64,000 bases of DNA from Salinimonas chungwhensis DSM 16280 (GTDB lineage Bacteria; Pseudomonadota; Gammaproteobacteria; Enterobacterales; Alteromonadaceae): positions 124,001 through 188,000 of the forward strand of contig NZ_KB899378.1 of the NCBI RefSeq assembly GCF_000378185.1, given 5' to 3'. Under the pieces are notes generated by a model. It was not told the DNA's origin and ran no database searches. It worked only from the letters and a program-made list of their open reading frames with translations. A program made the translations under genes and the position numbers. Of this stretch, positions 23,240-38,189 are shown in pieces; position 1 is the first letter of the stretch; each line of letters opens with the position of its first letter.

Positions 23240-24553
23240 TTAAGAGGAAAGTTCTATTTCCCGACGTTCCTGGCTACTTTTTTCTGCTTCAACAAACTTC
23301 TTCCATTGCTGGGCGATTCCGCGGCTTTTAGGATGCTTCTCCGCTTCAGCTAACTGATCGAGTGCTCTGGCGTACTGCCCGGTATTATACAGGGCCATTC
23401 CTTTTACCAGATGGGGAGTGCCCTCGTTACGAAGCTGGCCTTTTTCCAGTGCACGCTCTGCCGCTGCAATGGCTTTGTCCCATTTCTCGGTATTTAGGTA
23501 AATTTGTGCCAGCTGAGAATCCAGTTCGCCGTCTTCTGACAATGCGGCTGCTTCGGTCAATGCCGGAATGGCTTTGTCATTTTCCTTGGCCAGTTGCCAG
23601 GTCTGACCCAAAAAGCGCCAGTTCCGCAGGTTTTTCTCCAGCGTGCCATCGGCCAGCGCCTGCTCCATAAGCTTAGCCCCTTTAAACGGTGCCCTGTGAT
23701 AATAATACAACTGTGCCAGGTTAAAAATATCCGCCGCACTTTGCACATAGCCCTGCTGGTAGGCAGTCTCCATTATAGCGAGCTGTTTGCGCTCCTCGCC
23801 CAACTCACCATACATTCCGGCTAGCTGGATCCAGTATTTAGGCTCGTTATAGAGCTTAACCATCTTGACCAGAATATCTTTGACTTTCTCAGGGCGTTTA
23901 AGCTCGTAATAGACCGCCCGTTGCAATACCAGCCAGCCTTCATCAGGAATCATGCCCTGCGCTTCATGCTCCGCCACCGCCTGATCAATATACCCGGCCG
24001 CGCCTTCATACTGCTTGTTCTGATAAAGTGCCTGCGCTTTAAGCACTTTGTTTTTAGGCGGTATCTCACCGTTATTCAACGTTTCCCAGCGTTCCAGGTA
24101 TTTTACTACATTTTCGTAATTGCCCTGCATCAGGTGCAACTGAGCCAACGAAAACAGTGTCGACATTTCGAACTTACGCGGAATTGGCTGTTGTTCGACC
24201 ACACTGGCAAAGGCATCCAACGCTTTATCGTACTGCTCATCGTTGTAGTAGATAAATCCGTAGAAGTTATACATCATCGCCTGCTCATAACTGTTCATTG
24301 AGCTGGTTTTGCTTTTTACAACATCCAGGATGTCAATCGCTTCACCGACATTGCCTTCGTCGGCGGCTGTCTGCGCACGGGAGAGCTGATCATAGACTTT
24401 CGAGCGTAAGGTAGGCACCTTGCGCGTTTGCTTTTCACTGGCTTTCTGTTGCGCTGACGCATCTGAAGATACCAGCGCAGCCGGAATGGCTGCACCGTAC
24501 ACCGAGGCTACGACAGTCGCCACTAACAGGCGCTTTGATAGTAATTTCTGCAT
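23240..24553 (-). CDS. TPR-repeat protein of the TonB2-type operon
   Basis: This 437-residue protein has a signal peptide (about 1-34, ending DASA), so it is periplasmic. Tetratricopeptide-like helices cover most of the rest, for example the YNFYGFIYYNDEQYDKALDA and PHLVKGMALYNTGQYARALD units. It is the last gene of the DUF3450-ttpC-exbB-exbD-tonB operon, 6 bp after tonB. A TPR protein in this position is a recurrent feature of TonB2-type operons in Vibrio and relatives. It probably scaffolds or stabilises the complex, but no partner has been shown for this copy. A bidirectional terminator follows. Confidence 0.85.
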   Translation of the reverse strand: MQKLLSKRLLVATVVASVYGAAIPAALVSSDASAQQKASEKQTRKVPTLRSKVYDQLSRAQTAADEGNVGEAIDILDVVKSKTSSMNSYEQAMMYNFYGFIYYNDEQYDKALDAFASVVEQQPIPRKFEMSTLFSLAQLHLMQGNYENVVKYLERWETLNNGEIPPKNKVLKAQALYQNKQYEGAAGYIDQAVAEHEAQGMIPDEGWLVLQRAVYYELKRPEKVKDILVKMVKLYNEPKYWIQLAGMYGELGEERKQLAIMETAYQQGYVQSAADIFNLAQLYYYHRAPFKGAKLMEQALADGTLEKNLRNWRFLGQTWQLAKENDKAIPALTEAAALSEDGELDSQLAQIYLNTEKWDKAIAAAERALEKGQLRNEGTPHLVKGMALYNTGQYARALDQLAEAEKHPKSRGIAQQWKKFVEAEKSSQERREIELSS

Positions 24554-24559
24554 ATCGAA

Positions 24560-25168
24560 TTACCCGTCAATCTGGAATGTAATGCGGTTTTGCACGCCGG
24601 ATACTGCGGTGGCTTCACCATTAACAACCCGTGGTTTATATTTGAATTTCATTGCTGCATCGATAGCAGCCTGTTCAAAAATACCCTCTGGGTTTGCTTC
24701 AACCACAATAGGATCCCGCACTGCTCCCTGCTTACTCACTGTAAACTCGACAATAACGAAGCCTTCAATACCCCGTTGCAGTGCACGGCGCGGATAGACT
24801 GGGGAGACCTTAACAATGGGTAAGTATTCACCATCACCAGAGTCCAGTGCCAGACCACCTTCAAGCCCACCGTCGGCACCCACCTCCGTACTAAAATCCA
24901 TAGATGTGCCTTCTGCATCTGGCGAAGGCGAGTCCATCTGTTGTGGCTGCATTTGCGGCGGTGGCTGCTCCGGCTTGGGCGGCTTACGAGGTTTACGATC
25001 TTTTTGCTCTACCGTTTCCTCTTGCTTAACTCTGACAAAATCAAGCACGCTTCCCTTAGGCGGCTCTGTCATAGCGCTGCCTCCCATTTTGATCAGTGAC
25101 TGCATCAAAAAGAACAGGCCCAGGGTAATCGCCAGAGAAACAAAAAATGCGATAATAAATCGTACCAT
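24560..25168 (-). CDS. tonB: TonB2-type energy transducer
   Basis: This short TonB of 202 residues has one N-terminal transmembrane helix (about 5-24), a lysine/proline-rich periplasmic spacer (RKPPKPEQPPPQ, about 60-75) and a C-terminal TonB domain (about 115-202). The latter contains the characteristic YPRRALQRGIEGFVIVEFTV and the FKYKPRVVNG segment. It transmits proton-motive energy from ExbB/ExbD to TonB-box receptors in the outer membrane. The short spacer and the gene order with ttpC place it in the TonB2 class. It follows exbD by 3 bp. Because the operon begins with a Pho box and lies next to a receptor gene, it may serve that receptor chiefly; this is inference. Confidence 0.93.
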   Translation of the reverse strand: MVRFIIAFFVSLAITLGLFFLMQSLIKMGGSAMTEPPKGSVLDFVRVKQEETVEQKDRKPRKPPKPEQPPPQMQPQQMDSPSPDAEGTSMDFSTEVGADGGLEGGLALDSGDGEYLPIVKVSPVYPRRALQRGIEGFVIVEFTVSKQGAVRDPIVVEANPEGIFEQAAIDAAMKFKYKPRVVNGEATAVSGVQNRITFQIDG

Positions 25169-25171
25169 GAC

Positions 25172-25579
25172 TTATTGCTCTTGCGCTGCAATTGAAACGT
25201 CGTAAACACCTGCGGCCCGAGAAGCATCCATTACTTTAATCAGCGTTTCAGTCGTCGCCTTTTTATCGGCCTGAATGACCACGGTACCCTGCGGATTCTC
25301 TGCATGCAGACGCTCAATATTGGCCTGAATAGCGCGCTCATCAACACGGCGTTTGTTGATCCATATCTCACCGGTATCAGATATGGCAATCAAAACATTA
25401 GCCCGATCTTTTTTCACGGCGGTGGAAGCTTCAGGTCGATTAACATCAATACCCGCCTCCTTAACAAAAGACGCTGTTACAATGAAGAAGATAAGCATGA
25501 TAAAGACCACGTCCAGCATGGGCGTCATATCAATTTGTGCTTCTTCTTCGTCCACCAGATTTTGAAAATGCTGCTTCAT
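25172..25579 (-). CDS. exbD: Biopolymer transport protein ExbD
   Basis: A 135-residue ExbD with the single N-terminal membrane helix (about 18-40) containing the proton-path aspartate in PMLDVVFIMLIFF, and a small periplasmic C-terminal domain (about 55-135). It forms the inner-membrane stator/motor with ExbB and energises TonB. It sits between exbB (24 bp away) and tonB (3 bp away) in the operon. Confidence 0.94.
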   Translation of the reverse strand: MKQHFQNLVDEEEAQIDMTPMLDVVFIMLIFFIVTASFVKEAGIDVNRPEASTAVKKDRANVLIAISDTGEIWINKRRVDERAIQANIERLHAENPQGTVVIQADKKATTETLIKVMDASRAAGVYDVSIAAQEQ

Positions 25580-25603
25580 AATTTGCTACCTTAACTTAAC
25601 GCC

Positions 25604-26131
25604 CTAACTGGCATTACGTTCAATAATGATTGCATCCTCAAGATGCGTGCGTTCAGACTTCGCTTTACGGTTTAACCAGGTCGAGGCAAATACGCCTGAC
25701 AGGGCGCCGACCATCCCCGCCATGGTTGGGATTGTCGCTTTGGACACTCCCGAGGCCATTGATCGTGCGTTACCTGAACCTGAAATGGCCATCACGTCAA
25801 AGACTTCAATCATGCCCGTTACCGTCCCCAATAATCCCAGCAACGGGCAAAGTGCGACCAGTGACTGAATAATCGGGATACTGCCATTTAACTGAATGGA
25901 CAGGGATGAAATTTTCTTCTGTCTGACCTGAGCGGCATACCATGAAGAGCGATCGGAACGGGCTTGCCAGTCTTTTATCGCCTGCTTCTTCTTACCTTTA
26001 TGCCAAACCATGATGTACATCGCACGTTCAAGGATCAAAAGCCACATTACGAATATCAGCAGACCGATGACCAGGAGAACCTGGCCACCTGTTTCTGTGA
26101 AATCGCGGATTGCTTCGAGAAACTCAAACAT
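25604..26131 (-). CDS. exbB: ExbB/MotA/TolQ-family proton channel protein
   Basis: A 175-residue ExbB2-type subunit with three membrane helices (about 15-37, 92-115 and 133-155). The conserved cytoplasmic/membrane sequence LCPLLGLLGTVTGMIEVFDVMA and the glycine-rich SGVSKATIPTMAG region are typical of ExbB/TolQ. It provides the pentameric channel around ExbD. Its start is 3 bp downstream of the ttpC stop, so the pair is translationally close. It is shorter than classical ExbB (about 240), as usual for TonB2 systems. Confidence 0.93.
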   Translation of the reverse strand: MFEFLEAIRDFTETGGQVLLVIGLLIFVMWLLILERAMYIMVWHKGKKKQAIKDWQARSDRSSWYAAQVRQKKISSLSIQLNGSIPIIQSLVALCPLLGLLGTVTGMIEVFDVMAISGSGNARSMASGVSKATIPTMAGMVGALSGVFASTWLNRKAKSERTHLEDAIIIERNAS

Positions 26132-26133
26132 GA

Positions 26134-27498
26134 TTAGCTCCGCTCAGCGCGCTCTGCGATAACCCCTGCAGCCTGTTCCTGCAGAATGTATACGATATTT
26201 TTGCTACGGGTATTGAGTATGGCGTAGAGCAGTGTCATCGGAATCGCTACAACCAAACCTAATACTGTGGTAACCAGCGCTGTGGAAATACCACCGGCCA
26301 TCAATTTCGGGTCGCCGGTACCAAACAGCGTGATAGCCTGGAACGTATTAATCATACCGGTTACCGTTCCCAGCAGACCCATCAGGGGAGCCACTACCGA
26401 GATAATCTTAATGATGGTCAGATTACGGCTAAGTTTGGGCACTTCACCAAGAATGGCCTCAGTTAGGTGCAGCTCCAGCGCTTCGGTATCAGCATTAGGG
26501 TATTTATCGCGCACACTCATGACCCGGCCAAGAGGGTTGGTGGTCTTGATTTTCTTGGATTTAAGCTGCTTATCAACCTTGGTTTTGGTGATAGTCAGTG
26601 CCACCAGGCGCCAGATAGCTAAAGCCAGTCCGAACGCACCTACGATCAATATGATATAGCCCACTACGCCGCCTTGCTCTACACGCTCTTTCAGGGTCGG
26701 TGCCTGCACCAACAAGCCCAGAATTGAGCCACCTGTTGGGTCGATACCAAATTCAACCAGTTCACCATCTGAATTCTGTAATGACTCAGCAGAATCCTGA
26801 TAACGATCCGCGGGCTGACGTACCAGTTCGGCCACCGTGCCAGTTACGCCGTTGTAGTCTAAATACATCCCATCTGAAACCAGCGCAAAGGGGCCGACAC
26901 GAAGCACTTCCTTGGTTACCTTCTCGCCACCAGCTTCCACCACGGAGGTTTCAAATGTCTCGACATCACCTGACTCAGTCATCTCACGCTGAATTTCAAA
27001 CCAGACACGCTCAATTTCCTCAATCGACGCCAGTTTAGAGCTTTTACCCATTTCCTGGGCCATATTGTCCAGAAATTCCGAACGGCCGGGAATCTGCGCT
27101 GAGATAACAGAATTCTGAAACTTGCTCTTCGTATCTCCAGCCACTTGCTGCAGTACACCAAACAGTTCTTTCAATGACCCCATGCGATTGTCCAGCGCAC
27201 CATTTAAATCGGCGAGCTTAAATTCATTTTCCTCAAAGCGCGTTTCAAGTTGCTCTGATTGCTGTAATAGCTGGTCTCGTTTGGCGCGGGCTTCCTCAAG
27301 AATCTGATCCTGCTCAGCGCGGCGCTCCATGAAGCGCTGTTCACGCTGTTCATTCTGCTGGCTCTGGGCAAACTGGCCTTCTTCCAGCTGTTTAAGCAGT
27401 GCATCCAAATCCAGGGCGCGGTCACTCTGGGCCATGGCACCGAAGCTCAGGCCAACGGCAGTCAGACCAACTACAAGTTTTTTCATTTGTTTAAACAT
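26134..27498 (-). CDS. ttpC: TtpC-like MotA/TolQ/ExbB proton channel protein
   Basis: This 454-residue protein has a signal-like N-terminus (about 1-24, ending AMA), a coiled-coil periplasmic region (about 30-100), a further extracytoplasmic domain, and a C-terminal ExbB-like domain with three helices. The last includes APLMGLLGTVTGMINTFQAI and the VAIPMTLLYAIL helix. Such TtpC proteins are required by TonB2 systems in Vibrio. The ATG at 27498 has GAGG at 9-nt spacing; an ATG at 27504 would add two residues with the ribosome site too close. It begins 14 bp after the DUF3450 gene. Its two-domain build distinguishes it from plain ExbB. Confidence 0.88.
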   Translation of the reverse strand: MFKQMKKLVVGLTAVGLSFGAMAQSDRALDLDALLKQLEEGQFAQSQQNEQREQRFMERRAEQDQILEEARAKRDQLLQQSEQLETRFEENEFKLADLNGALDNRMGSLKELFGVLQQVAGDTKSKFQNSVISAQIPGRSEFLDNMAQEMGKSSKLASIEEIERVWFEIQREMTESGDVETFETSVVEAGGEKVTKEVLRVGPFALVSDGMYLDYNGVTGTVAELVRQPADRYQDSAESLQNSDGELVEFGIDPTGGSILGLLVQAPTLKERVEQGGVVGYIILIVGAFGLALAIWRLVALTITKTKVDKQLKSKKIKTTNPLGRVMSVRDKYPNADTEALELHLTEAILGEVPKLSRNLTIIKIISVVAPLMGLLGTVTGMINTFQAITLFGTGDPKLMAGGISTALVTTVLGLVVAIPMTLLYAILNTRSKNIVYILQEQAAGVIAERAERS

Positions 27499-27511
27499 GG
27501 TCATCTACCTC

Positions 27512-28270
27512 TTACTCTGTCATTGCCACTGGCAGCATCAGCATATCCGGCGCCAGTTGTTTCTTAGCCATTCTCAGGCCTTTGGTTACCTGGGTGCGAT
27601 AGCTGCTATCCAGCTCTTCCCACTGACGGGTTTGCTTATTCCAAACGCCCTGCTTACTGGCATCCCGGGTCTGGTATATCAGCGCTGTGCGACCCAGACG
27701 TAAAAATTCAACATCGCGCTCTGCGCCATCTATTTCGAGAATGCCGTTGTACGCTTCCATTGTCCGGCCGTACTCCATCTCTACCTGATAGGCTTCCATA
27801 ACCCGGCGGAACTTTTCCGAGGCGGCAACATCAGCCCGGTCCATCAGATTTTTCAGGTCTGTTACACGATTTGCACGTTCTTCAGCAAGAAACGGCACAT
27901 CGAGCTCGATAAACTGCTCAAGCCCTTCAATCATGCGAATCATCAGCGGTGTAATCTGCCGCTCAATCACCGATACTTCGTCGATTGAATCATTCAGATC
28001 AGTCATTTCCTGCTTTTGGTTTTCGATTTGTTTGCGCAGCTGGGCGTTATAAACTTCCAGGCCCTCAATTTCCTTATTCAGCGTTTTGAACTGCTGCAGC
28101 TTGCTGTCGATCTGGTTGGTGATTTTATTGATCTGTTCCTGGGACTGTGCTGCCGATTCATTGATCTTTGCAGCCTCGTCCACCACGGGTTTCAAGACTT
28201 CATCATCTTGCGCCAACGCACTGGATGCCAGCATGGCACTTGCCAGTAGCAAGGAGTTGAAAAGCTTCAT
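27512..28270 (-). CDS. DUF3450-family periplasmic coiled-coil protein
   Basis: A 252-residue protein with a signal peptide (about 1-20, cleaved after ALA). A long coiled coil follows (about 35-105), then the DUF3450 core with the WNKQTRQWEELDSSYR region near the C-terminus. It is the first gene of the TonB2-type operon. DUF3450 genes are typical companions of ttpC-exbB2-exbD2-tonB2 in Vibrio, Shewanella and Alteromonas relatives; the protein presumably interacts with TtpC in the periplasm, but its function is not established. A Pho-box-like sequence lies about 75 bp upstream. Confidence 0.88.
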   Translation of the reverse strand: MKLFNSLLLASAMLASSALAQDDEVLKPVVDEAAKINESAAQSQEQINKITNQIDSKLQQFKTLNKEIEGLEVYNAQLRKQIENQKQEMTDLNDSIDEVSVIERQITPLMIRMIEGLEQFIELDVPFLAEERANRVTDLKNLMDRADVAASEKFRRVMEAYQVEMEYGRTMEAYNGILEIDGAERDVEFLRLGRTALIYQTRDASKQGVWNKQTRQWEELDSSYRTQVTKGLRMAKKQLAPDMLMLPVAMTE

Positions 28271-28329
28271 ACACTCAAACCTTTTAATTTAGAAATCGGT
28301 ACGCACCGACCAGAATAGAAACTGCGCGT

Positions 28330-28363
28330 AGGATAGGAGTTTTCTGTGACAGTTTTATTACAT
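28330..28363 (-). promoter_or_regulatory. Pho box and -10 element before the TonB2-type operon
   Basis: On the minus strand ATGTAAT-AAAA-CTGTCAC (28346-28363) resembles the PhoB site (two CTGTCAT-like 7-mers, 4 bp apart). Ten bp further is TATCCT (28330-28335), the position expected for the -10 box of a PhoB-dependent promoter that lacks a -35 box. The 18-bp site differs from that upstream of phoB at one base. Confidence 0.72.
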
Positions 28364-28404
28364 GCCTGCCATATATATAAGTGGATTTATATTCGTTTAG
28401 CGGA

Positions 28405-28431
28405 TAAAAAAAGAGCCGCATTTAGCGGCTC
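28405..28431 (-). terminator. Terminator after the TonB-dependent receptor
   Basis: GAGCCGC (28413-28419) and GCGGCTC (28425-28431) pair over a 5-nt loop; on the minus strand seven T residues follow. It separates the receptor transcript from the downstream Pho-box promoter. Confidence 0.9.
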
Positions 28432-28441
28432 AAAAAAGGAT

Positions 28442-31198
28442 TTAGAAGGTGTAACTGTAGCTGAGTCCAAACTCAACACCGCGTTCTTCTCGTAACAAAT
28501 CAAGACCTTCCTGGTCTATGCGTTTTTCCTGATCCAGCAGGTTTTTCACGCTAAATTTAATCTGTGAATTAAAGTCAGGATAATAGGAGTAGGTAAAGTC
28601 CACAGAATGGAATGTTTGTTCCTCTGCATCTTCATTACCCCGGGTACCCGGCACGATAATCCGCGGACCAAACGCATTGTAAACCAGTGTCGCTGAATGC
28701 TCACCGTTAGGAGAGTCATAGCCCATCTGCAGGTTGAGTACCCACTCAGAATGCCCTACCAGACGACGAACATTATTAGTCACGATATTTGATGCACTGG
28801 TGGCATCAAGCGCATCAAGTAACTGACGCTCGAACAAACTGGTGCGATCATCATCGGCGGCGCCAATGACTACTTCTGAGTCAGATACAGTCACGTTACC
28901 GGTGACAAAAAAGTCGACCAGACGCGAATCGACAAAGCTCAGGTCCTGCAGAAACTCAAACTCCACACCATAAAGTTCGCCAGTGTCACCATTGGCTGTC
29001 AGGAGGTTGGGCGCAGCGCCACCCACTGTACCAAGCTCAACCAGCTCAATGGGGTTTTCAATATCTTTGTAGAAGATAGCAGCGGACAGGTTATTACCCG
29101 CTTCGCGATACCACTCCCAGCGAAAATCCGCATTGCGCAGTTTAGAGCTTCTCAGCAGCGGCGATCCCCGCACCAAAAACTCAGTTAGCGGATCAATAAA
29201 GAAGGTGGTACTGATATCCCGTAAATCCGGTCGAATAGTGGATTCACTGATGTTAAACCTGAACTGCATCTCATCGTCCATGATGTAAGTCATAGCCAGA
29301 GAAGGGAAGAAATCATCTTCCTGAAATGCTAACTGCGCAATTTCCTCGCTATTTACGGAGAACGAGTTGGCATGTGCCTCAAAGGGTACTGAGATTTGAC
29401 GAAAATCTTCATAGCGCACACCACCAGAGAACCGCCATTTATTATTAATAAAGGCATCTGCCATCAGATAGTACGCATCTATTTTAGTGCCGGCGGCATA
29501 CTCGTCACCATCAGCCATATTGGACTGCAAGATTCCCGCTCCAGTGGCACTGTCATAAAATTCATCACTGGCCAGTTGTTCGGGTGAGAAAATGTCGTCT
29601 ATCTGATCTCCAAACTGTGCATCATCAGCAATAGCACGGTGAGGAACCTGAATAGTAATATTTTCTGCTTTACGGGCTTTTTCAAAAAAGTCCGCGCCGG
29701 CTTTAATCTCAAGATCTACGCCATCGAACATTACTGGATAGCCAAGGTTCCAGCCCCAGGTCTCAGACGCATCACGCAAGTCCTGATACTGTCGATCGAC
29801 ATTGGTAGCCGAAACATCCTGCAGTTGCTGTGACAGAAATTCGCCATCTTCGAGGTTCTGCTGATAAGTCAGCGAGAGTCCGCCTGGCGCTTCACGGCCC
29901 GCGCGACTGCTACCGGCATACCAGTCAAAGTACATAAAATCCAGTTCCGGAAAATTATGGGTACCTTTAATCTGACTTGAGGTCATGCGGCGTTCTTCAA
30001 ACAGCATATCCACACGCTCAAGTTCCCGCGTGCCGATAATAGTTTCGTTTACATCGATAAAGTCACGTACCCGGACGCGATCGTTCATGTCGTGCAAAAT
30101 AACATTGGTAATTTCAAGGCGATGGTTACTGTTGTATTCATAACCCACGTTGAACATTCCGCTCCAGCTTACACTCTGCTCGGTTTCGATACCGTCGTAG
30201 GACTGACCAAAGCATTTTCCGTCAGACGTATCTCTGTCGGACAACGATGAACAGCCATTGGTCCCCAGGTTAGTTCCCTGTCGCTCACGCCCCACATCCC
30301 ATTCATTTTCGTAAGAGATAGTAGACAGAAACCCGAATTCACCAATATCAGTAACAAACCGGTTTCCCAGGGTGGCGCCAATATCAAAATCAGGATCGAC
30401 ATCTTTAGCGTCCGGGCCGATATCCCAGAACATTGAACCGAGCATTTCTTTGCGTTGTTCAAGGGTAAGCGGATAGGAGCCAGAACCCTCGATACCGTCA
30501 TCTGACTGCGCCTGCTCCAGATTGCTACTAATAATCGCCGGCAGCGCACGAGTACCGTCATCACGGCCGGTCCAGTCATCACCACCACCACCGTAGAAGA
30601 ATCCTTCAGTGGAGTTATTGGTGTTGTAGTCAACGCCGCCTGATACCTTAAATACAAATTCTGAAGGTATAGATTTAGTCCGGATGTTAACGTTGCCGCC
30701 ACCGAAATGAGCCGGCATATCCGGCGAGAACGATTTCTGAACGTTTAAGCTTTCAATGATATCCGAAGGAAATAAATCCAGTGGCACAACTGACCGTGTC
30801 GGATCGGGGCTGGGCACGCCCATCCCGTTCAGCTGGGTGCTGGAATAACGCTCACCCAGACCACGTACGTAAATAAATTTACCGTCTACCAGTGTTAGGC
30901 CGGTTACCCGGCGCAGTGCTGCAGCCGCATCACCGTCGCCGGTACGGGCGATCTGGTCAGCGCCTAGTATATCAGCCACAAACGCCTGATTCTGACGCTC
31001 CTGCAAAACCGCAGCAGCAGTACCTTTAAGGCGAGTTCCTGTGGCAACAACTTCCTCAATGACCTCCTGTTCGTCGGCCTGAGTCTGGCCTTCCTGAGCA
31101 AGTGCTGCCGCAGAGGTAAGTGTGCCCGCCATTAAGGCTATGCTAACCGCTGTGCATAGCTTCGATTTCGATGGCATCGAACGGCTTTTATAAATCAT
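28442..31198 (-). CDS. TonB-dependent receptor of the phosphate-linked cluster
   Basis: This large outer-membrane receptor of 918 residues has a signal peptide ending AALAQ (about 1-35), TonB box VIEEVVATGTR, a plug domain (RRVTGLTLVDGKFIYVRGLG, then PHFGGGNVNIRTK-like sequence) and a barrel ending FGLSYSYTF. GGAG lies 10 nt before the ATG at 31198. It follows the duplicated lipoprotein gene by 104 bp containing a hairpin without a U-run, so both are probably cotranscribed from the Pho-box promoter at 34.1 kb. Downstream is the TonB2-type operon with its own Pho box. This context suggests uptake of a phosphorus-containing substrate; the sequence itself does not identify a ligand and shows no siderophore- or B12-receptor signature that I recognise. 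Confidence 0.87.
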   Translation of the reverse strand: MIYKSRSMPSKSKLCTAVSIALMAGTLTSAAALAQEGQTQADEQEVIEEVVATGTRLKGTAAAVLQERQNQAFVADILGADQIARTGDGDAAAALRRVTGLTLVDGKFIYVRGLGERYSSTQLNGMGVPSPDPTRSVVPLDLFPSDIIESLNVQKSFSPDMPAHFGGGNVNIRTKSIPSEFVFKVSGGVDYNTNNSTEGFFYGGGGDDWTGRDDGTRALPAIISSNLEQAQSDDGIEGSGSYPLTLEQRKEMLGSMFWDIGPDAKDVDPDFDIGATLGNRFVTDIGEFGFLSTISYENEWDVGRERQGTNLGTNGCSSLSDRDTSDGKCFGQSYDGIETEQSVSWSGMFNVGYEYNSNHRLEITNVILHDMNDRVRVRDFIDVNETIIGTRELERVDMLFEERRMTSSQIKGTHNFPELDFMYFDWYAGSSRAGREAPGGLSLTYQQNLEDGEFLSQQLQDVSATNVDRQYQDLRDASETWGWNLGYPVMFDGVDLEIKAGADFFEKARKAENITIQVPHRAIADDAQFGDQIDDIFSPEQLASDEFYDSATGAGILQSNMADGDEYAAGTKIDAYYLMADAFINNKWRFSGGVRYEDFRQISVPFEAHANSFSVNSEEIAQLAFQEDDFFPSLAMTYIMDDEMQFRFNISESTIRPDLRDISTTFFIDPLTEFLVRGSPLLRSSKLRNADFRWEWYREAGNNLSAAIFYKDIENPIELVELGTVGGAAPNLLTANGDTGELYGVEFEFLQDLSFVDSRLVDFFVTGNVTVSDSEVVIGAADDDRTSLFERQLLDALDATSASNIVTNNVRRLVGHSEWVLNLQMGYDSPNGEHSATLVYNAFGPRIIVPGTRGNEDAEEQTFHSVDFTYSYYPDFNSQIKFSVKNLLDQEKRIDQEGLDLLREERGVEFGLSYSYTF

Positions 31199-31246
31199 GC
31201 TAAAAAAACTCCGTTAGGGCTTTATCTGGAATAGAGTGCTTCTAAT

Positions 31247-31276
31247 AGCTTAGGCGCCGAATCAGGCGCCTAAGCT
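31247..31276 (-). other. Intercistronic hairpin between lipoprotein and receptor genes
   Basis: AGCTTAGGCGCC (31247-31258) and GGCGCCTAAGCT (31265-31276) form a perfect 12-bp stem with a 6-nt loop. In the direction of transcription no U-run follows, so it may cause partial termination or protect the upstream message, giving more lipoprotein than receptor. Confidence 0.6.
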
Positions 31277-31302
31277 TTATTACTAAGTGGCTACGCCAAG
31301 TC

Positions 31303-34098
31303 TTATTCCAGACCGACAGTTACCCAGCCTTCTGTCCAGTCGTCTTCAGCATCCATTGCGCCAATGAAGTCAGTAGCTTCAAAGTAGCTGCCTTCACCTG
31401 ACAAATCCGCACCGCCATTCAGTAGCACAGAGCCTTCAGCAGGTTGATAGCCATTGTCTGCCAGACCCAGGCCGTCCTGGGCCAGAACAGTATTACCCTC
31501 TTGTCCTTCGAACCAGGCTTGGGTAAAGCCTTCACTGCCTTCGTCATCGCTAAAGTTATTACCTTCGGCACATGCAACCACTGAGTGGGTCATGCTCAGC
31601 TCACCGGCATCAGCATTAGCACGAGACTCATCACCATTAACACGCAGACAGTTGGCATAGCCATCTGGCCCGGTGATAACAAAGTTAGCCAGGGTTCCGG
31701 CTGTACCTGCCCGCAAACGCACGCCGTTGGCATCAGCAGCACCAATGATGGTCACGTTAGCCACTGTAGGATTCGTCAACGGGGTTGCTGCTGCGTCAAA
31801 TTCACTGTTATCAGACTCAAACGCATTGTCGCCGTCGGCAGCATCCTGTTTGATAAGGACATACTGTGCGTTACCAGTCCAACCGAATGACCAGTCAAAA
31901 GAGTCATCACCGTTATCGGTCAGAACAACGTGTTTCACACTGACTGTGCCACCGAAAAACTCAATGCCATCGTCAAGGTTCTGGTGAACGTGGATATAGT
32001 CAACTTCAGTCCCTGAACCGACACCTGCAAAGCTGATTCCATTGAGCTCATCACCGTTGCCCAGTGTACGGCCTGCATGTTTAACTGCTACGTAGTTAAG
32101 CACACCGGAATTATCTTCTGGCATGTCCCCGCCGAACTGACCCGCATCACCTTCTGCAGAAACTCCACAGTTACTCAGCTCATCTTCGGTAGTTTCACCC
32201 ACCTGGTCACCACATGAGTTAGCTGGTGCACGACCAAGCAGTACCAGACCGCCCCATTGGCCAATACCGGTTTCCTGGCCCGTAACATCCTGAACTGAGG
32301 TCATTACGATAGGCATTGAACGACTACCCAGTGCATGTAGCTGAGAGCCGCGACGTATAACCAGGAAGTCCTCTCCGGCCTGACCTATTAACGTCGTGCC
32401 TTTTTGAATATACATAGTGGCAGAGTTTTCATTATCACCACCTACTGCCGTACGGCCTGTCAGCACCCAATGGGCATCGTTGGTCAGTGTTACATCTGAC
32501 GTAAAGGTCGTATCTTCAGCAATCTGATACACCGGCTTGTCAGTTATCGACGGGAAGTCCGCCGAAACATCTGTTGCCAGGTTCTGCTCAAGGGCATTAT
32601 CAATATCTGTAGGGAAACCATCACCAACGCCGAACGTCCAGCCTTCCATCCAGTTATTTGTACCGTCAAATGCACCGACATACTGCGCTGCGTCAAAGCT
32701 GTCGTTAAGCGCAGAAGCATCGCCACCACTACTTAAAAGAACCGAGCCGGAAGCTGGCGTGTAGCCATCTTCACTCAAGCCAAGATCAGCAGGTGCTACA
32801 GTCTGGTTGCCATCCTGTCCTTCAAACCAGGCCTGTGTGAAACCCTCACTACCCTCGTCATCGCTGAAGTTATTGCCATCAGTACATGCAACCACTGAGT
32901 GGGTCATGCTCAGCTCACCGGCATCCGCATTGGCACGGGACTCATCACCGTTGACCCGCAGACAGTTTGCGTAGGATTCAGGGCCGGTAACAACCAGGTT
33001 GATGATATTACCGGCCGTGCCGGCACGCAGACGTACACCGTTGGCATCTTCTGCACCTACAATTGTAACGTTAGCAATCTGCGGCTTGGTTAGCGGTGTC
33101 GCTGCAGCATCAAATTCGCTGTTATCCGCTTCAATAGCATTGTCACCATCTTCGCTGCTTTGTTCGATATACACATACTGGGCAGCACCGGTCCAGCCAA
33201 ATGACCAGTCTAAAGAGTCATCGCCAATTTCTGTTAATACAACGTGGCTCACATCCACGGTACCCCCAAAGAACTCAATACCGTCATCAAGATTCTGGTG
33301 AACCTGGATGTGGTCAACTGTGGTGCCTGAACCCACACCGGCAAAGCTGATACCGTTTAGCTCATCACCGTTGCCCAGGGTACGGCCCGCATGTTTAACC
33401 ACAACATATTGCAGGGTACCTGAGTTGTCTTCTGGCATGTTGCCACCAAATTGACCCGCATCGCCTTCGGCAGAAACACCACAGTTATTCAGCTCGTCTT
33501 CGGTGGTTTCACCCACCTGGTCACCGCACGAGTTAGCCGGTGCACGGCCGAGTAATACTACCCCACCCCATTGACCGATGTCTGTTTCCTGGCCGGTAAC
33601 ATCCTGTACTGATGTCATAATGATAGGCGCTTCGGCTGTACCTGTTGCTTCAATTTGTGAGCCGCGACGCACCACCAGGAAGTCTTCCCCGGCCTGACCA
33701 AAAATGGTGGTTCCCGCTTCGATATACAAAGTCGCAGAATTTTCGTTGTCACCGCCAACGGCTGTTCGACCGCTTAATACCCAGTGCGCATCAGAAGTCA
33801 GAGTCGCATCTTCATTGAACTCAATATCTTCCTGAAGCTGATAAACCGGTTTGTCCGTGATGGCAGGAAAGTCAGCCGATACATCGGTTGCCAGTCCCTG
33901 AGTAAATGCAGACTCGGGGCCCGTCGGTGTCGGTGTGGGTGTTGGAGAAGGAGTTGGCGTTGGTGTCGGAGAAGGATTATTTATTGTGTCGCCTTCATTG
34001 GTTACGTCACCTTCACTTATATTAATATCGCCGCCACAGCCTGCTAATACCAGGGCACTGGCAATCGCAGATGCTTTGAATAGATGCTTGATAGCCAT
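31303..34098 (-). CDS. Duplicated surface lipoprotein paired with the TonB receptor
   Basis: This 931-residue lipoprotein has lipobox ALVLAGC with Cys21, an acidic segment, and a Pro-Thr-Ser-Pro linker (about 42-62). Two tandem copies of one domain of about 430 residues follow (about 69-500 and 507-931, period 438). Both copies contain GRTAVGGDNENSAT, GEDFLV, IGQWGG, GRAPANSCGDQVGE, DDGIEFFGGTV and an aspartate-rich end. The repeating strand pattern and many Asp/Asn/Gly turns suggest a right-handed beta-helix-like, possibly calcium-binding fold. Similar proteins occur near TonB receptors in marine bacteria, but I know no proven function. I chose the ATG at 34098 (GGAG upstream, lipoprotein signal follows); the open frame begins 66 bp earlier. 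A Pho box lies 60 bp upstream. A substrate-capture role beside the receptor is inferred. Confidence 0.8.
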   Translation of the reverse strand: MAIKHLFKASAIASALVLAGCGGDINISEGDVTNEGDTINNPSPTPTPTPSPTPTPTPTGPESAFTQGLATDVSADFPAITDKPVYQLQEDIEFNEDATLTSDAHWVLSGRTAVGGDNENSATLYIEAGTTIFGQAGEDFLVVRRGSQIEATGTAEAPIIMTSVQDVTGQETDIGQWGGVVLLGRAPANSCGDQVGETTEDELNNCGVSAEGDAGQFGGNMPEDNSGTLQYVVVKHAGRTLGNGDELNGISFAGVGSGTTVDHIQVHQNLDDGIEFFGGTVDVSHVVLTEIGDDSLDWSFGWTGAAQYVYIEQSSEDGDNAIEADNSEFDAAATPLTKPQIANVTIVGAEDANGVRLRAGTAGNIINLVVTGPESYANCLRVNGDESRANADAGELSMTHSVVACTDGNNFSDDEGSEGFTQAWFEGQDGNQTVAPADLGLSEDGYTPASGSVLLSSGGDASALNDSFDAAQYVGAFDGTNNWMEGWTFGVGDGFPTDIDNALEQNLATDVSADFPSITDKPVYQIAEDTTFTSDVTLTNDAHWVLTGRTAVGGDNENSATMYIQKGTTLIGQAGEDFLVIRRGSQLHALGSRSMPIVMTSVQDVTGQETGIGQWGGLVLLGRAPANSCGDQVGETTEDELSNCGVSAEGDAGQFGGDMPEDNSGVLNYVAVKHAGRTLGNGDELNGISFAGVGSGTEVDYIHVHQNLDDGIEFFGGTVSVKHVVLTDNGDDSFDWSFGWTGNAQYVLIKQDAADGDNAFESDNSEFDAAATPLTNPTVANVTIIGAADANGVRLRAGTAGTLANFVITGPDGYANCLRVNGDESRANADAGELSMTHSVVACAEGNNFSDDEGSEGFTQAWFEGQEGNTVLAQDGLGLADNGYQPAEGSVLLNGGADLSGEGSYFEATDFIGAMDAEDDWTEGWVTVGLE

Positions 34099-34141
34099 TC
34101 GTTTCTCCGTAAAGACTATGTATTTGTAAAAAGACAGGAGA

Positions 34142-34175
34142 AGCCTACATGCGCTTGATGACATTTTTGTTACAT
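34142..34175 (-). promoter_or_regulatory. Pho box and -10 element before the surface lipoprotein gene
   Basis: On the minus strand ATGTAAC-AAAA-ATGTCAT (34158-34175) has two CTGTCAT-like 7-mers separated by four A. A TAGGCT hexamer follows after exactly 10 bp (34142-34147). The same geometry occurs before phoB and before the TonB2-type operon. The repeats are less perfect than in the other two sites. Confidence 0.65.
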
Positions 34176-34285
34176 TAGTTTTGGTGTAACAAAAGTTTTA
34201 TATTTGGCAGTGAACTTTTTAGGAGGTGTATTTTTCTTTTTATAAATCAGTGCTTTAAGGTTTTTCAAATAAGATAGAAGAGACG

Positions 34286-35095
34286 TTAGCAGGGCGTTCT
34301 GAACCACTTGGTAATAACCGTTTTCTCGCCATTTATGACAGGATGCGCCTGATGAAGCGTGGCGGTATTCACATTCCCGTCCAGATCCAGATTGTTCCAA
34401 AACAGCGCCCGGCCCGGCTGCGGCGAAAAGCGCTTACCAATATGCAAAAATTCAGTATCCCCGCCTTCTTCAACGACATTGAGATACACCATGCAGGTCC
34501 AGGTGCGCTGACCTGACTCTGCAGCAAAACGTCTGTATTCAGAAGTGGCAGGCTCGAAATAATCGGTGTGCGCCTTAAACGCTTGCCCCGGGGCATAATG
34601 TTGGGCCTGAATCGGCTCACCCACCCCAAAATCCGGACCAAATAAACTCTGGATCCGTTTATCTGCCAAATCTGTTAAGGCCTGATCAACCTGGGACAGA
34701 TCACAGGTGGAAGAGGTTCGAAATGACTGTGAAGTTCCTGAACTGACAGTTGAAATGTCTGACGGACGAAGATGTTGTTTGATTACAGAACATAGCTGCG
34801 CGCATTCATCCTGGCTAAACACCTCATCCATCTGATACAGCTGAAGTGTCGGGGTACTGAAACTGACCAGTGAACTCTGAGGATGCTGTATTACAGATGG
34901 TCGGGCCAGCGCCGAAAAATAGCGGCTGTCGTATGGGTAAGCAAAATCGTCCGGCAAGTTTCCGGCCAGCAAGGGGCGAATCAGCGAATCTGAAAAGCCT
35001 TCTTTTATAAGCGTGTGATGAAGTGTCGTCGCGGGCACGCCGCGTAAGAGGTTTTCAACGATCCAACGCTTCCAGTTACCAGGCAGTTTAGTCAT
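34286..35095 (-). CDS. Prolyl-4-hydroxylase-like 2-oxoglutarate/Fe(II) dioxygenase
   Basis: This 269-residue protein has no signal peptide. The C-terminal half is a P4H-type double-stranded beta-helix: iron ligands in the HTD motif (FKAHTDYFEP) and in the later TLHQAHPV, with the 2-oxoglutarate-binding lysine in GEKTVITKWFR. The CMVYLNVVEEGGDTEF strand lies between them. The N-terminal ~90 residues are a helical region not recognised. It overlaps the PstS-like gene by 8 bp, so it is the last gene of the phoB-phoR-pstS-like run. The substrate could be a protein proline or another small target. Its linkage to phosphate genes is unusual and unexplained; the fold assignment is firm. Confidence 0.85.
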   Translation of the reverse strand: MTKLPGNWKRWIVENLLRGVPATTLHHTLIKEGFSDSLIRPLLAGNLPDDFAYPYDSRYFSALARPSVIQHPQSSLVSFSTPTLQLYQMDEVFSQDECAQLCSVIKQHLRPSDISTVSSGTSQSFRTSSTCDLSQVDQALTDLADKRIQSLFGPDFGVGEPIQAQHYAPGQAFKAHTDYFEPATSEYRRFAAESGQRTWTCMVYLNVVEEGGDTEFLHIGKRFSPQPGRALFWNNLDLDGNVNTATLHQAHPVINGEKTVITKWFRTPC

Positions 35096-36062
35096 ATTGC
35101 GCCCCCCCGATTAACCTTCGCTGGCGCAGCAGTACATCGTCGCGAACCGGAAAATAGCCGTCTTTCTGAACCTGTTGCTGGCCTTGTTTGGATAGAATAA
35201 ACCGTAGAAATTCTCGTTCTAACTTTGGTAAAGGCTCGCCGGGGGCTTTATTAATCACCAGATACAAAAAACGGGCGTAGGGGTATGTCTCGTCACGGAC
35301 CGTGTCCAGGGTAAGCGGAATCAGAGTATCTGTTGAGCTGCCAATCGGCAGAGCACGCACGCCCGCTGTTTTATAGCCGTAGGCTGCGTATCCCATGCCA
35401 TTGCGGCTGGTCGCCACAGACAGGACCACCGAAGCCGAGCCAGGCTGTTCGTTCACCGTCGCCCTGAAGTCACCGTCGCACAACGCCATCACTTTGAACA
35501 ATCCATAGGTACCTGACACAGAGTTACGCCCAAACAAGCGTATCGGTGAATCGCTAATGCCGGTGTTGACCCCCAGTTGATGCCATTTTGTGATGGGCTC
35601 AGCCCCACCACAAAAGCGGGTATGTGAAAAAATAGCATCCACTTGCTGTAACGTAAGCCCATGCAATGGGTTTCTGCGTTCGACAAAGATCGCGATTGCA
35701 TCCATCGCCACCCGCAACACCGTAGGAGGATAGCCATGCTCGCGCACAAACTCACGAATTTCGCTGGGTTTAAGTGCCCGGCTCATAGGCCCAAGCGTAG
35801 CGGTACCTTCAGTAAGAGCGGGCGGCGCGGTAGAGGACCCGGAGGCCTGTATCTGAAACTTTACCTGCGGATAGAGGGTTTTAAATTCCTGCGACCAGAA
35901 AGCCATCAAATTAGCCAGCGTGTCTGAACCCACTGACGTGATTTTGCCGGCGACGCCAGGCTGGCGGGTATATTCGGGCACGCGATCGGCTTTTGTTTCG
36001 CGTTCAGCAAATGCGTTGCCTGCTATGAGGCACAAGAAAATAATCGATAAAATGGCTCGCAT
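35088..36062 (-). CDS. PstS-like phosphate-binding periplasmic protein
   Basis: This 324-residue periplasmic binding protein has a signal peptide (about 1-19, ending NAFA). The phosphate-binding family motifs are present: TSVGSDTLANLMAFW, QIQASGSSTAPPAL, GPMSRAL, and GRNSVSGTYGLFK. Its ATG overlaps the phoR stop codon by one base (TAATG), which shows translational coupling. No pstC, pstA, pstB or phoU gene is in the window, so it either delivers phosphate to a transporter encoded elsewhere or acts as a sensor component for PhoR; both are inference. It overlaps the hydroxylase gene downstream by 8 bp. Confidence 0.87.
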   Translation of the reverse strand: MRAILSIIFLCLIAGNAFAERETKADRVPEYTRQPGVAGKITSVGSDTLANLMAFWSQEFKTLYPQVKFQIQASGSSTAPPALTEGTATLGPMSRALKPSEIREFVREHGYPPTVLRVAMDAIAIFVERRNPLHGLTLQQVDAIFSHTRFCGGAEPITKWHQLGVNTGISDSPIRLFGRNSVSGTYGLFKVMALCDGDFRATVNEQPGSASVVLSVATSRNGMGYAAYGYKTAGVRALPIGSSTDTLIPLTLDTVRDETYPYARFLYLVINKAPGEPLPKLEREFLRFILSKQGQQQVQKDGYFPVRDDVLLRQRRLIGGAQYD

Positions 36063-37360
36063 TATGTCCCTGCTACTAACTCCTGGCTGAGCAAAAATGA
36101 AAACTCACTGCCCTCACCTACTTTGCTGGTGATCTCCAGCCTGGCGTTATGATGGGAAAGGACATGCTTGACGATTGATAAACCCAGCCCGGAACCACCG
36201 GTCTTGCGCGAGCGGGCTTTATCTACCCGGTAAAAGCGTTCGGTGAGCCGGGCCAGATGATTTTGCGCAATGCCTTCGCCATTATCCACGACTGCAAAGC
36301 GGGCGCCGTCATCCCGGGCCTGCCAGTAAACATCAATCTGGCCCCCCGCCGGGGTATAGTGAACGGCATTAAACACCAGGTTGGAGCAGGCACTGCGTAA
36401 CTCTGTCTCCACGCCAAAAACTTTAAGTGCAGCATCCACATGAAAATTGATGGTATGTTGCTTTTCTTTATTCAGGGCCTGAGCTTCCGCTTCCATTTGT
36501 TTAAACATCGCTGGCATATTGACGACATTTTCATAAATACGTTCTGAGCTGGCCTCAATGCGGGAGAGGACTAGCAGATCTTCTACCAAATTTTGCATAC
36601 GCTGCGTCTGCGCACTCATTTCATTAATTGCTTTAGCCTGAAACGGATCTTCCATGGCATCTACAGGCAACAGTTCAAGATACCCCTGCAGCACCGTCAG
36701 TGGCGTACGCAATTCATGGGAGACATTCGCCACAAAATCTTTTCGCATTTCTTCCAGTTGTGAAACCCGGGTGATATCCCGTGCGATAAGTAACAAGTGC
36801 GCGTCGCCGTAAGGCATAATCCGGTATTCGAAGGTTTTACCGGGATTAGTCGGCGCCGGAACCTCAATGGGGTGATCAAAGTTCCCGGCATGAAAATAGG
36901 CGATAAATTCAGGATGTCGAATAAGATTATCAAGCCGGCGACCTGCATCGGCCGGCCATTTGAGGCCTAAATCCAGCCGCGCCAGGCGGTTGCACCAGAT
37001 GATATTGGCCTTAGCATCCACCACCACAGCGGCGTCGGGCAATGCTTCAGAGCCTTCCCGAAATCGTTTAACCAGCTCACCTAACTCTTTACGTTTATTT
37101 CGGTTACGCCGCTGAAGATAATATATTCCCTCATAAATATGTTCCCACACTCCTTTGACGGTGGGCGGCGACATTTTTCGACTATGCCACAACCAGCGGT
37201 TGAGTTTTAACAACTGCCAGTAATTAAGTGCCAGCAGGGTTACTGCGCCTAATGTAATGGCGAACATCATATCGTCCAGATACCATCCCGCCACAGCAAA
37301 TATCAGCAAATAGCCGAATAAGCGAAGCAGGCTTTTCATCCAGGAAAAGGGATAGTACAT
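36062..37360 (-). CDS. phoR: Phosphate-regulon sensor histidine kinase PhoR
   Basis: This 432-residue sensor kinase matches E. coli PhoR (431) in length and plan: two N-terminal hydrophobic helices (about 8-55), a PAS domain (about 95-195), the dimerisation/phosphoacceptor domain with His215 in VANVSHELRTPLTV, and an ATPase domain with NLVFNAVHYTP, DNGEGI and GGSGLGLSIVKHVL motifs. Absence of a large periplasmic domain agrees with sensing through the Pst transporter. It lies 76 bp after phoB with a strong intercistronic hairpin between them, and runs into the PstS-like gene by a one-base overlap. Confidence 0.95.
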   Translation of the reverse strand: MYYPFSWMKSLLRLFGYLLIFAVAGWYLDDMMFAITLGAVTLLALNYWQLLKLNRWLWHSRKMSPPTVKGVWEHIYEGIYYLQRRNRNKRKELGELVKRFREGSEALPDAAVVVDAKANIIWCNRLARLDLGLKWPADAGRRLDNLIRHPEFIAYFHAGNFDHPIEVPAPTNPGKTFEYRIMPYGDAHLLLIARDITRVSQLEEMRKDFVANVSHELRTPLTVLQGYLELLPVDAMEDPFQAKAINEMSAQTQRMQNLVEDLLVLSRIEASSERIYENVVNMPAMFKQMEAEAQALNKEKQHTINFHVDAALKVFGVETELRSACSNLVFNAVHYTPAGGQIDVYWQARDDGARFAVVDNGEGIAQNHLARLTERFYRVDKARSRKTGGSGLGLSIVKHVLSHHNARLEITSKVGEGSEFSFLLSQELVAGT

Positions 37361-37400
37361 AGTGGCGAATTTGACCTTGGGTTTTAAATTGGCGTGGTAT

Positions 37401-37427
37401 CAGGCACAGTTTAGAGAACTGTGCCTG
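37401..37427 (-). other. Intercistronic hairpin between phoB and phoR
   Basis: CAGGCACAGTT (37401-37411) and AACTGTGCCTG (37417-37427) form a perfect 11-bp stem with a 5-nt loop, beginning 9 bp after the phoB stop. No U-run follows in the direction of transcription. It may lower phoR expression relative to phoB or stabilise phoB mRNA. Confidence 0.6.
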
Positions 37428-37436
37428 TAAGAAAAG

Positions 37437-38123
37437 CTATTTTGTTGAAAAGCGATATCCTGCGCCACGTACGGTTTGAATCATCGCATCATGATTCTCT
37501 GCGGCAATGGCCTTGCGCAGCCGGCGGATATGCACGTCAACCGTGCGATCCTCTACATACACATTGGTGCCCCATACGTTGTCCAGCAACTGCTCTCTTG
37601 AGTAAACCCGCTCTGGGTGGGTCATGAAAAAGTGCAGTAACTTGAATTCAGTCGGCCCCATGTCCAGCGCTTTATCATTAACTGACACGCGATGCGACGT
37701 AGGCTCAAGCTTCAGGCCGTTAAACTCAATGGGCTCTTCGTTGGAGGTAGGCGTAACCCGACGCATCACAGCCTTGATTCGTGCCACCAGCTCTTTAGGT
37801 GAAAACGGCTTAGTAATATAGTCATCCGCGCCGGCATCCAGCCCGCGGATTTTATCATCCTCTTCGCCCCGGGCGGTCAGCATTATCACCGGAATGTCCC
37901 GGGTAAATTCATGCTGCTTTAAATGTTTGGCCAGTTGTACACCGCTGCCGCCGGGTAGCATCCAGTCGAGCAAAATAAGGTCTGGATATGGCTCACACAT
38001 TTTGTCCTTTGCGATATCATAATCTTCCGCTTCAATGGTATCGAAACCTGACTGCTCAAGCACAAACTTAAGCATCTCACGGATTGGCGCTTCGTCCTCA
38101 ACCAATAACACTGTTCGAGACAT
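37437..38123 (-). CDS. phoB: Phosphate-regulon response regulator PhoB
   Basis: This 228-residue OmpR-family response regulator is one residue shorter than E. coli PhoB. The receiver domain (1-120) has the acidic pocket [10 protein letters not shown], phosphoacceptor Asp53 in [11 protein letters not shown] and [18 protein letters not shown]; the winged-helix DNA-binding domain (about 130-228) has [26 protein letters not shown]-type sequence. I chose the ATG at 38123 because AGGA lies 8 nt upstream and the receiver starts directly; an ATG at 38141 would add six residues without a ribosome site. A Pho box lies 48 bp upstream, consistent with autoregulation. It is the probable regulator of the two Pho-box promoters downstream in this cluster. 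Confidence 0.95.
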
Positions 38124-38155
38124 AGAGGTTTTCCTGCTCATAATTAAACGCCGCC

Positions 38156-38189
38156 ATTATTCATCGTATCTGTGACAGTTTTATTAAAT
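38156..38189 (-). promoter_or_regulatory. Pho box and -10 element before phoB
   Basis: On the minus strand ATTTAAT-AAAA-CTGTCAC (38172-38189) is a PhoB-site-like pair of 7-mers; after 10 bp comes AATAAT (38156-38161). The 18-bp site differs at only one base from the one before the TonB2-type operon. Confidence 0.75.

Follow-up and report, generated by a model that had tools for sequence, protein, structure and literature searches.

Gene organisation of the island

The stretch analysed here, called the window, comprises 64,000 nucleotides of Salinimonas chungwhensis DSM 16280 (contig NZ_KB899378.1). On the minus strand, positions 23240-38141 hold twelve consecutive open reading frames (ORFs) in three blocks, which were identified by ORF reading and profile searches (Table 1). 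One block carries phoB, phoR, pstS and an oxygenase gene. Another carries a lipoprotein gene and the gene of a TonB-dependent receptor, and the last encodes a TonB motor of six genes headed by ttpB, the product of which is a DUF3450 protein. Each block begins with a Pho-box-like site, and the layout predicted for a Pho regulon, a pair of 7-mers with a 4 bp gap and a -10-like box near it, was found at all three. The comparison across genomes strongly supports Pho control of all three blocks. A preliminary description of this locus had listed twelve minus-strand genes in three blocks, with the same identities, and had placed at each block a pair of Pho-box-like 7-mers, an AAAA gap and a -10-like hexamer 10 bp further on. 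The gene list was confirmed by ORF reading and profile matches, and the sites were confirmed at all three blocks.

The mechanical ORF list starts the lipoprotein frame at ATG 34164. The start is most likely ATG 34098, since it follows GGAGAAACGA and is followed by a lipobox, and box 2 therefore stands upstream of the gene. The terminator-like hairpin between the receptor gene and ttpB is consistent with transcription of the TonB block from its own promoter. The gap between the lipoprotein and receptor genes contains an inverted repeat of 12 pairs with a 6-base loop (31247-31276). The repeat may act as a terminator or protect the transcript of the lipoprotein gene, and may set its level above that of the receptor.

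Table 1. Genes and predicted sites of the island, listed from the phoB end (positions in the window)
Feature	Position	Strand	Evidence or sequence
Pho-box-like site 1 (phoB block)	38172..38189	-	ATTTAAT-AAAA-CTGTCAC, 10 nt, AATAAT
phoB, phosphate response regulator	37437..38141	-	TIGR02154, 366.7 bits, above cut-off; NF007546, 412.9 bits, below cut-off
phoR, phosphate sensor kinase	36062..37360	-	NF008235 and TIGR02966, above cut-off
pstS, phosphate-binding protein	35088..36062	-	TIGR02136, 223.6 bits, above cut-off
2-oxoglutarate (2OG)-Fe(II) oxygenase, prolyl 4-hydroxylase (P4H)-like	34286..35095	-	PF13640, 56.6 bits, above cut-off
Pho-box-like site 2 (lipoprotein-receptor block)	34158..34175	-	ATGTAAC-AAAA-ATGTCAT, 10 nt, TAGGCT
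ElpS-type lipoprotein, 931 amino acids, two tandem beta-helix-like domains	31303..34098	-	lipobox LAGC, CGGDI start, model, neighbourhoods
TonB-dependent receptor, partner of the lipoprotein	28442..31198	-	PF00593 and PF07715, above cut-off; model
Terminator-like hairpin and T run, gap between receptor and TonB block	28413..28431	-	
Pho-box-like site 3 (TonB block)	28346..28363	-	ATGTAAT-AAAA-CTGTCAC, 10 nt, TATCCT
ttpB (DUF3450), gene 1 of the TonB block	27512..28270	-	PF11932, 307 bits
ttpC, MotA/ExbB domain after a DUF3450-like N-terminus	26134..27504	-	PF01618, 105.9 bits; PF11932, 25.9 bits, below cut-off
exbB	25604..26131	-	PF01618
exbD	25172..25579	-	PF02472
tonB	24560..25168	-	PF03544
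ttpD-like TPR protein, final gene of the TonB block	23240..24553	-	TPR families

Conservation of the Pho-box-like sites

A Pho-box weight matrix with a threshold of 14 found exactly three sites in the 64-kb window, all at block starts and in the right orientation. The reversed window gave none, and 60 first-order Markov simulations gave a mean of 0.63 and a maximum of 3. At a threshold of 17.5 there were three sites in the window against a simulated mean of 0.05 and a maximum of 1. The matrix was written from the Escherichia coli consensus after the three boxes were known. Therefore, the independent weight rests on other genomes and on a weight-free count of matches to the 14 consensus positions, for which at least 11 of 14 were demanded. 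A looser pattern run over the whole genome gave 12 matches against 8 with the pattern reversed; three of the matches were exact, and two of these lie in the island.

Within the order, 32 of 197 genomes carry the lipoprotein; in a drawn sample of the phylum it was found in 51 of 398, and in the family in 32 of 39, each count including the source genome. The comparison was made with the 31 order relatives, with 80 named loci, which are the best of at least 527 confirmed stretches, and with 20 distant loci taken from the 33 genomes of the phylum search with a match outside the order. The order and named loci share organisms, and their counts are not independent. Single stretches are cited by L numbers.

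Upstream of the lipoprotein gene of the order relatives, the mean best matrix score was 14.1 (n = 30, L058 being left out for its short upstream region) against a background of 5.6 (n = 153, p = 8e-14). As the second gene of the operon, the receptor gene serves as an internal control. The 95th percentile of the background was exceeded by 20 of the 30 lipoprotein upstreams and by none of the 31 receptor upstreams. The weight-free count gave the same contrast: the threshold was reached before the lipoprotein gene in 22/30, ttpB in 8/8 and phoB in 5/7 cases, against 1/31 for the receptor and 6/153 for the background. Two porin genes in the neighbourhood of the pair (L048, L076) rank among the highest background scores; they may be Pho targets. 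With the window excluded, sites at score 15 precede the lipoprotein gene in 44 of 93, ttpB in 18 of 30 and phoB in 18 of 23 relatives. The 79 distinct sites scoring at least 15 in the window and relatives share TAnnnT at positions 11-16 after the box, with T in 62%, A in 76% and T in 80% at positions 11, 12 and 16. This fixed place indicates that the 10-bp spacing is common to the window and its relatives.

The distant promoter set consisted of the 20 loci outside the order and five named alphaproteobacterial loci. L361, L363 and L196 were dropped at the lipoprotein, and L173 and L359 are one species. Lipoprotein upstreams again scored higher, with a mean of 11.5 (n = 22) against a background of 3.8 (n = 103, p = 5e-8). 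A score of at least 13 was obtained for 9/22 lipoprotein, 7/103 background and 0/24 receptor upstreams, and the weight-free threshold was reached by 15/22, 14/103 and 0/24, respectively.

Two types of TonB motor in the family

All 39 genomes examined in the window's family carry one or more DUF3450 (TtpB) genes, and the source genome carries a second TtpB-type TonB cluster on contig C15. Among the 80 TtpB copies over the cut-off, 71 were examined; seven of the other nine score below 121 bits. Of the 71 copies, 32 belong to the window type and 38 to the C15 type, and one (L313) is intermediate. A Pho-box matrix score of at least 13 was found before 28 of the 32 window-type ttpB genes and before none of the 38 C15-type genes (p = 1e-11), and the weight-free count gave 27/32 against 0/38 (p = 1e-12). 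In a FastTree phylogeny, 61 of 62 window-type rows, which include other loci, form one clade (support 0.94), and all 38 C15-type rows form another (0.95). L268, which is of the window type by score alone, falls outside the clade.

The window-type motor was present in 31 of the 32 family genomes with the lipoprotein and in none of the seven without it (Fisher p = 5e-7, a value inflated by shared ancestry; L268 was not counted as window type). The comparison strongly supports the view that the window-type motor is a paralogue specialised for the lipoprotein/receptor pair. The preliminary description had proposed both Pho control of the three blocks and a TonB complex dedicated to the pair. The former now has strong comparative support from the upstream counts of ttpB, phoB and the lipoprotein gene, and the latter is likewise strongly supported by this co-occurrence and by the neighbourhoods.

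The lipoprotein and receptor pair

The lipoprotein has a lipobox signal peptide (LVLAGC, residues 16-21 of the 931-amino-acid frame) and two tandem domains, which are 77% identical in protein and about 76% in DNA. This identity suggests a recent duplication or conversion. The number of domains varies between one, two and three as judged by the length of the lipoprotein, close relatives included (L046, L076, L132, L135, L154). The AlphaFold2 model (mean predicted local distance difference test (pLDDT) 85.9, predicted template-modelling (TM) score 0.57) begins with 59 residues of low confidence, followed by two mainly beta-stranded domains. Foldseek gave weak beta-helix matches, among them PL6 lyases, tailspikes and a hemopexin-binding protein (best E 1.4e-4, TM about 0.2), and they say little beyond the beta-helix. 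No Pfam family matched the lipoprotein at E ≤ 0.001, and the domain alignment had no match among PDB sequences at E ≤ 1. For the receptor, modelling gave a standard TonB-dependent barrel (pLDDT 81.0) that resembles solved TonB-dependent receptors, with PhuR as the best match (TM 0.70 by target length). The best NCBIfam match of the receptor, TIGR01782, is below the cut-off. Among named relatives, Salinimonas profundi (L132) is the nearest, with 91% identity in the receptor and 99% in ExbD.

A CGGDI-type motif stands directly after the lipid cysteine (window 34018-34038; lipoproteins L045-L077). By pattern it occurs in 30 of the 31 order relatives, the remaining one reading CGGD at a later cysteine, and in 51 of the 71 named lipoproteins with a lipobox match; several of the misses are doubtful starts. 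As judged from these sequences, the motif is a candidate surface-export signal.

The receptor gene adjoins the lipoprotein gene in all 31 order relatives, 74 of the 80 named loci and all 20 distant loci. In four of the six named exceptions energiser genes lie between the two, and L163 and L167 have no receptor match in the stretch. The receptor gene precedes the lipoprotein gene in L363. The other elements are less constant. The phoBR genes lie within the stretch in 5/31 order and 17/80 named loci, in co-directional and divergent layouts, the DUF3450 block in 8/31 and 22/80, and PstS in 4/31 and 9/80. In seven of the 80 named loci (two Nitrosomonas, two Deltaproteobacteria, one Pseudobacteriovorax and two unclassified), genes of the ExbB/ExbD/TonB type without DUF3450 lie close to those of the lipoprotein and receptor, another indication that a TonB motor accompanies the pair. 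The 2OG-Fe(II) oxygenase of the phoB block is present in just 3/31 order and 4/80 named loci.

At least two gsp (type II secretion) genes adjoin the pair in 10 of the 20 distant loci, and gsp genes also stand beside it in Eilatimonas (L171), Kordiimonas (L173), L170 and L196. No gsp gene was found among the five neighbours tested at an uncultured Caulobacterales locus (L180). Ten neighbour genes were checked (radical SAM, two porins, redoxin-glutaredoxin, kinase, TPR, ankyrin, sulfotransferase, GspN and M4 protease), and no common phosphorus enzyme was among them.

ElpS of Caulobacter, described in 2010, is a surface-exposed lipoprotein made under phosphate starvation, with an unsolved mechanism. 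Its published gene order is ElpS-CC0171-gspC-N, and homologues were noted in Shewanella and Bacteroides (PMC2996285). The window lipoprotein can tentatively be assigned to the ElpS type on the basis of synteny and of the published statement on Shewanella homologues. ElpS runs at about 50 kDa (PMC2996285), which fits one domain.

PhoBR, PstS and the Pho context of the genome

Of the 27 kinase matches in the genome, that of the window PhoR alone exceeds the PhoR cut-off, and the window PstS is the only TIGR02136 match. Therefore, the island sits at the master Pho locus of the cell and not at an extra local one, and the words "own" and "local", formerly applied to this PhoBR, were misleading. A pst-like operon with phoU but without PstS lies elsewhere on the same contig (L086, C3:46000-65900); its pst genes are predicted from ORF sizes and phoU. 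In the same stretch a site scoring 14.0 stands directly before a 705-amino-acid gene, and a 509-amino-acid gene is next on the other strand. The two sizes would fit a polyphosphate kinase and an exopolyphosphatase.

Stretches of the source genome were picked for pattern matches and then scored for sites. As expected for a Pho regulon, sites precede a phosphate-selective-porin-type gene (L082) and a glycerophosphodiester phosphodiesterase gene (L012). Another site precedes an M48 peptidase gene (L079), and in L080 and L081 no correctly oriented gene follows closely. The sites upstream of the Porin_O_P gene overlap each other (L082:7155-7183).

Proposed function and alternatives

On phosphate shortage, PhoB would activate three promoters. 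The first would drive phoB's own operon with PstS, the second the ElpS-type surface lipoprotein with its partner receptor, and the third the six-gene TtpB-TtpC-ExbB-ExbD-TonB-TtpD motor. A flexible tether would hold the lipoprotein away from the outer membrane. Its beta-helix domains would bind a phosphorus-bearing compound or polymer and pass it to the receptor, and the dedicated TonB complex would power the entry of the substrate into the periplasm. On balance, the island probably encodes such a PhoB-activated import system, although our confidence in the whole chain is modest. Inward transport of a phosphorus compound is, we infer, the likeliest use.

Several observations weigh against this reading. 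In 23 of the 31 order loci the stretch has no DUF3450 block, so that the motor is often not adjacent. The expectation that related genomes keep the blocks together with their Pho boxes held in part: the boxes are kept upstream of most lipoprotein genes of the order relatives, but phoBR, the pair and the DUF3450 block occur together in just 3/31 order and 8/80 named loci. Eight of the 30 order lipoprotein upstreams have fewer than 11 of 14 matches, four of the 32 window-type ttpB genes (L259, L263, L268, L273) score below 13, and in one genome the lipoprotein occurs but the window-type motor does not. The strict pattern CTGTCATN4CTGTCAT with at most three mismatches gave 4 matches in the window against 5.0 expected, which is not above chance. 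No strong Pho site precedes the pst-like operon of the source genome. In Caulobacter, cc0171, in contrast to elpS, was reported to be expressed constitutively in both rich and poor media, a change in intracellular phosphate was not detected, and the deletion of elpS left phosphatase activity unchanged (PMC2996285).

The main rival to phosphorus uptake is TonB-powered outward transport or surface display, in which the receptor and motor would put the lipoprotein or its bound cargo on the surface, or release it, in support of extracellular phosphatase. ElpS does not need the type II system to reach the surface, and its route there is unexplained; overexpression of ElpS raised phosphatase in the supernatant, while ElpS itself showed none (PMC2996285). 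The near inseparability of the lipoprotein and receptor genes and the conservation of the CGGDI-type motif in the order relatives would also suit this explanation. Receptor-mediated secretion reportedly occurs with the Myxococcus protease PopC. Against it speaks the similarity of the receptor model to importers, PhuR and FecA among them, and we regard outward transport as improbable.

It is likewise unlikely that the system serves a substrate not chosen for its phosphorus, such as a glycan or a metal complex, that is needed more under phosphate starvation, for example in lipid replacement. The TIGR01782 match of the receptor points in this direction but is below its cut-off, and the polysaccharide lyases and tailspikes among the fold matches of the lipoprotein would fit a glycan, though these matches are weak. 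Very improbable, in our view, is an ordinary TonB2-type iron-uptake cluster lying near phoBR by accident, with boxes that arose by chance or serve only phoB. The six-gene order is that of the iron-regulated Vibrio TonB2 cluster (PMC6957404), and simple pattern searches for the boxes were not above chance. However, the source genome has a second TtpB cluster on C15, Pho boxes precede only the window type, the exact -10 spacing is conserved, and the motor and lipoprotein co-occur.

A broader proposal can be made only tentatively, and we place it somewhat short of even. One of the family's two TtpB-type motors may be a dedicated phosphorus motor that forms, with the ElpS-type tandem beta-helix lipoprotein and the receptor, an active route through the outer membrane for phosphorus-bearing macromolecules. 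This route would be conserved across Proteobacteria and would explain the role of the orphan ElpS/CC0171 pair of Caulobacter. Iron, vitamin B12 and glycans have dominated the discussion of TonB motors. If the proposal is true, phosphorus would join the list of their substrates, in bacteria largely of marine origin, and the ElpS/CC0171 pair would gain a testable role. The split between the paralogues, one motor with Pho boxes and the other without, makes the idea testable by a few deletions.

Comparison with known systems

The literature search found no published Pho-controlled TonB2 paralogue and no study of ElpS in Alteromonadales. A term check of the available text of a Pseudoalteromonas low-phosphate paper gave no mention of TonB, and that of a fucoidan low-phosphate paper gave no more than a general passage on TonB. 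Pseudomonas aeruginosa provides a precedent for a TonB motor under phosphate control; no report of a link between such a motor and an ElpS-type pair turned up in the literature searched.

The TonB block shares the order and families of its six genes, ttpB-ttpC-exbB-exbD-tonB-ttpD, with the TonB2/TonB3 sets of Vibrio, in which TtpB carries DUF3450 and TtpD TPR motifs (PMC6957404). In contrast to the Pho control predicted for the island motor, the Vibrio TonB2 cluster is iron (Fur) regulated (PMC6957404), and TonB3 has no known substrate, its function in vibrios being stated as unknown (PMC10734418). Identity of the island with the Vibrio TonB3 system was considered and rejected. Eighteen TtpB-type clusters from eight genomes taken to be Vibrionaceae include none beside the lipoprotein/receptor pair, and their Pho-box scores are all at most 9.4. 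In three stretches taken to be Vibrionaceae (L230, L233, L235), TtpB-type clusters follow an ORF of about 700 amino acids and a two-component-like pair and have no match to the window receptor. They are possibly TonB3-like systems with their own sensor.

P. aeruginosa has a PhoB-dependent exbB2-exbD2-tonB4 motor, called uncharacterised and placed in the PhoB/sigma-VreI regulon (PMC4971064, PMC7035377). Like the motor of the island, for which this is predicted, it is under PhoB, and it is induced by phosphate starvation. A type II system that secretes phosphatase and a secreted exoprotein are encoded nearby (PMC4971064, PMC7035377). The P. aeruginosa motor differs in having three genes and in needing an extracytoplasmic function (ECF) sigma factor; TtpB/C/D and an ElpS-type lipoprotein or partner receptor are not named in the available text. 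Several TonB-dependent receptors of Caulobacter are under PhoB, and so is its type II system (PMC11208175).

A lipoprotein paired with a TonB-dependent receptor, as in the island, also recalls other systems. The SusCD-type and the phosphate-regulated PusCD systems of Bacteroidota are such pairs. Unlike the SusCD case, the window lipoprotein is not of the SusD family, as judged by the Pfam search, and its model is beta-helix-like. The ElpS (CC0170)/CC0171 system of Caulobacter has the same arrangement of a lipoprotein adjoining a TonB-dependent receptor and the same phosphate-starvation response, which is predicted here, and the homologues of the window pair in distant genomes stand beside gsp genes as published for Caulobacter. 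The island and its relatives differ from it in their one to three beta-helix-like domains, and the island in having PhoBR/PstS next door and a TonB motor block in place of the type II secretion genes.

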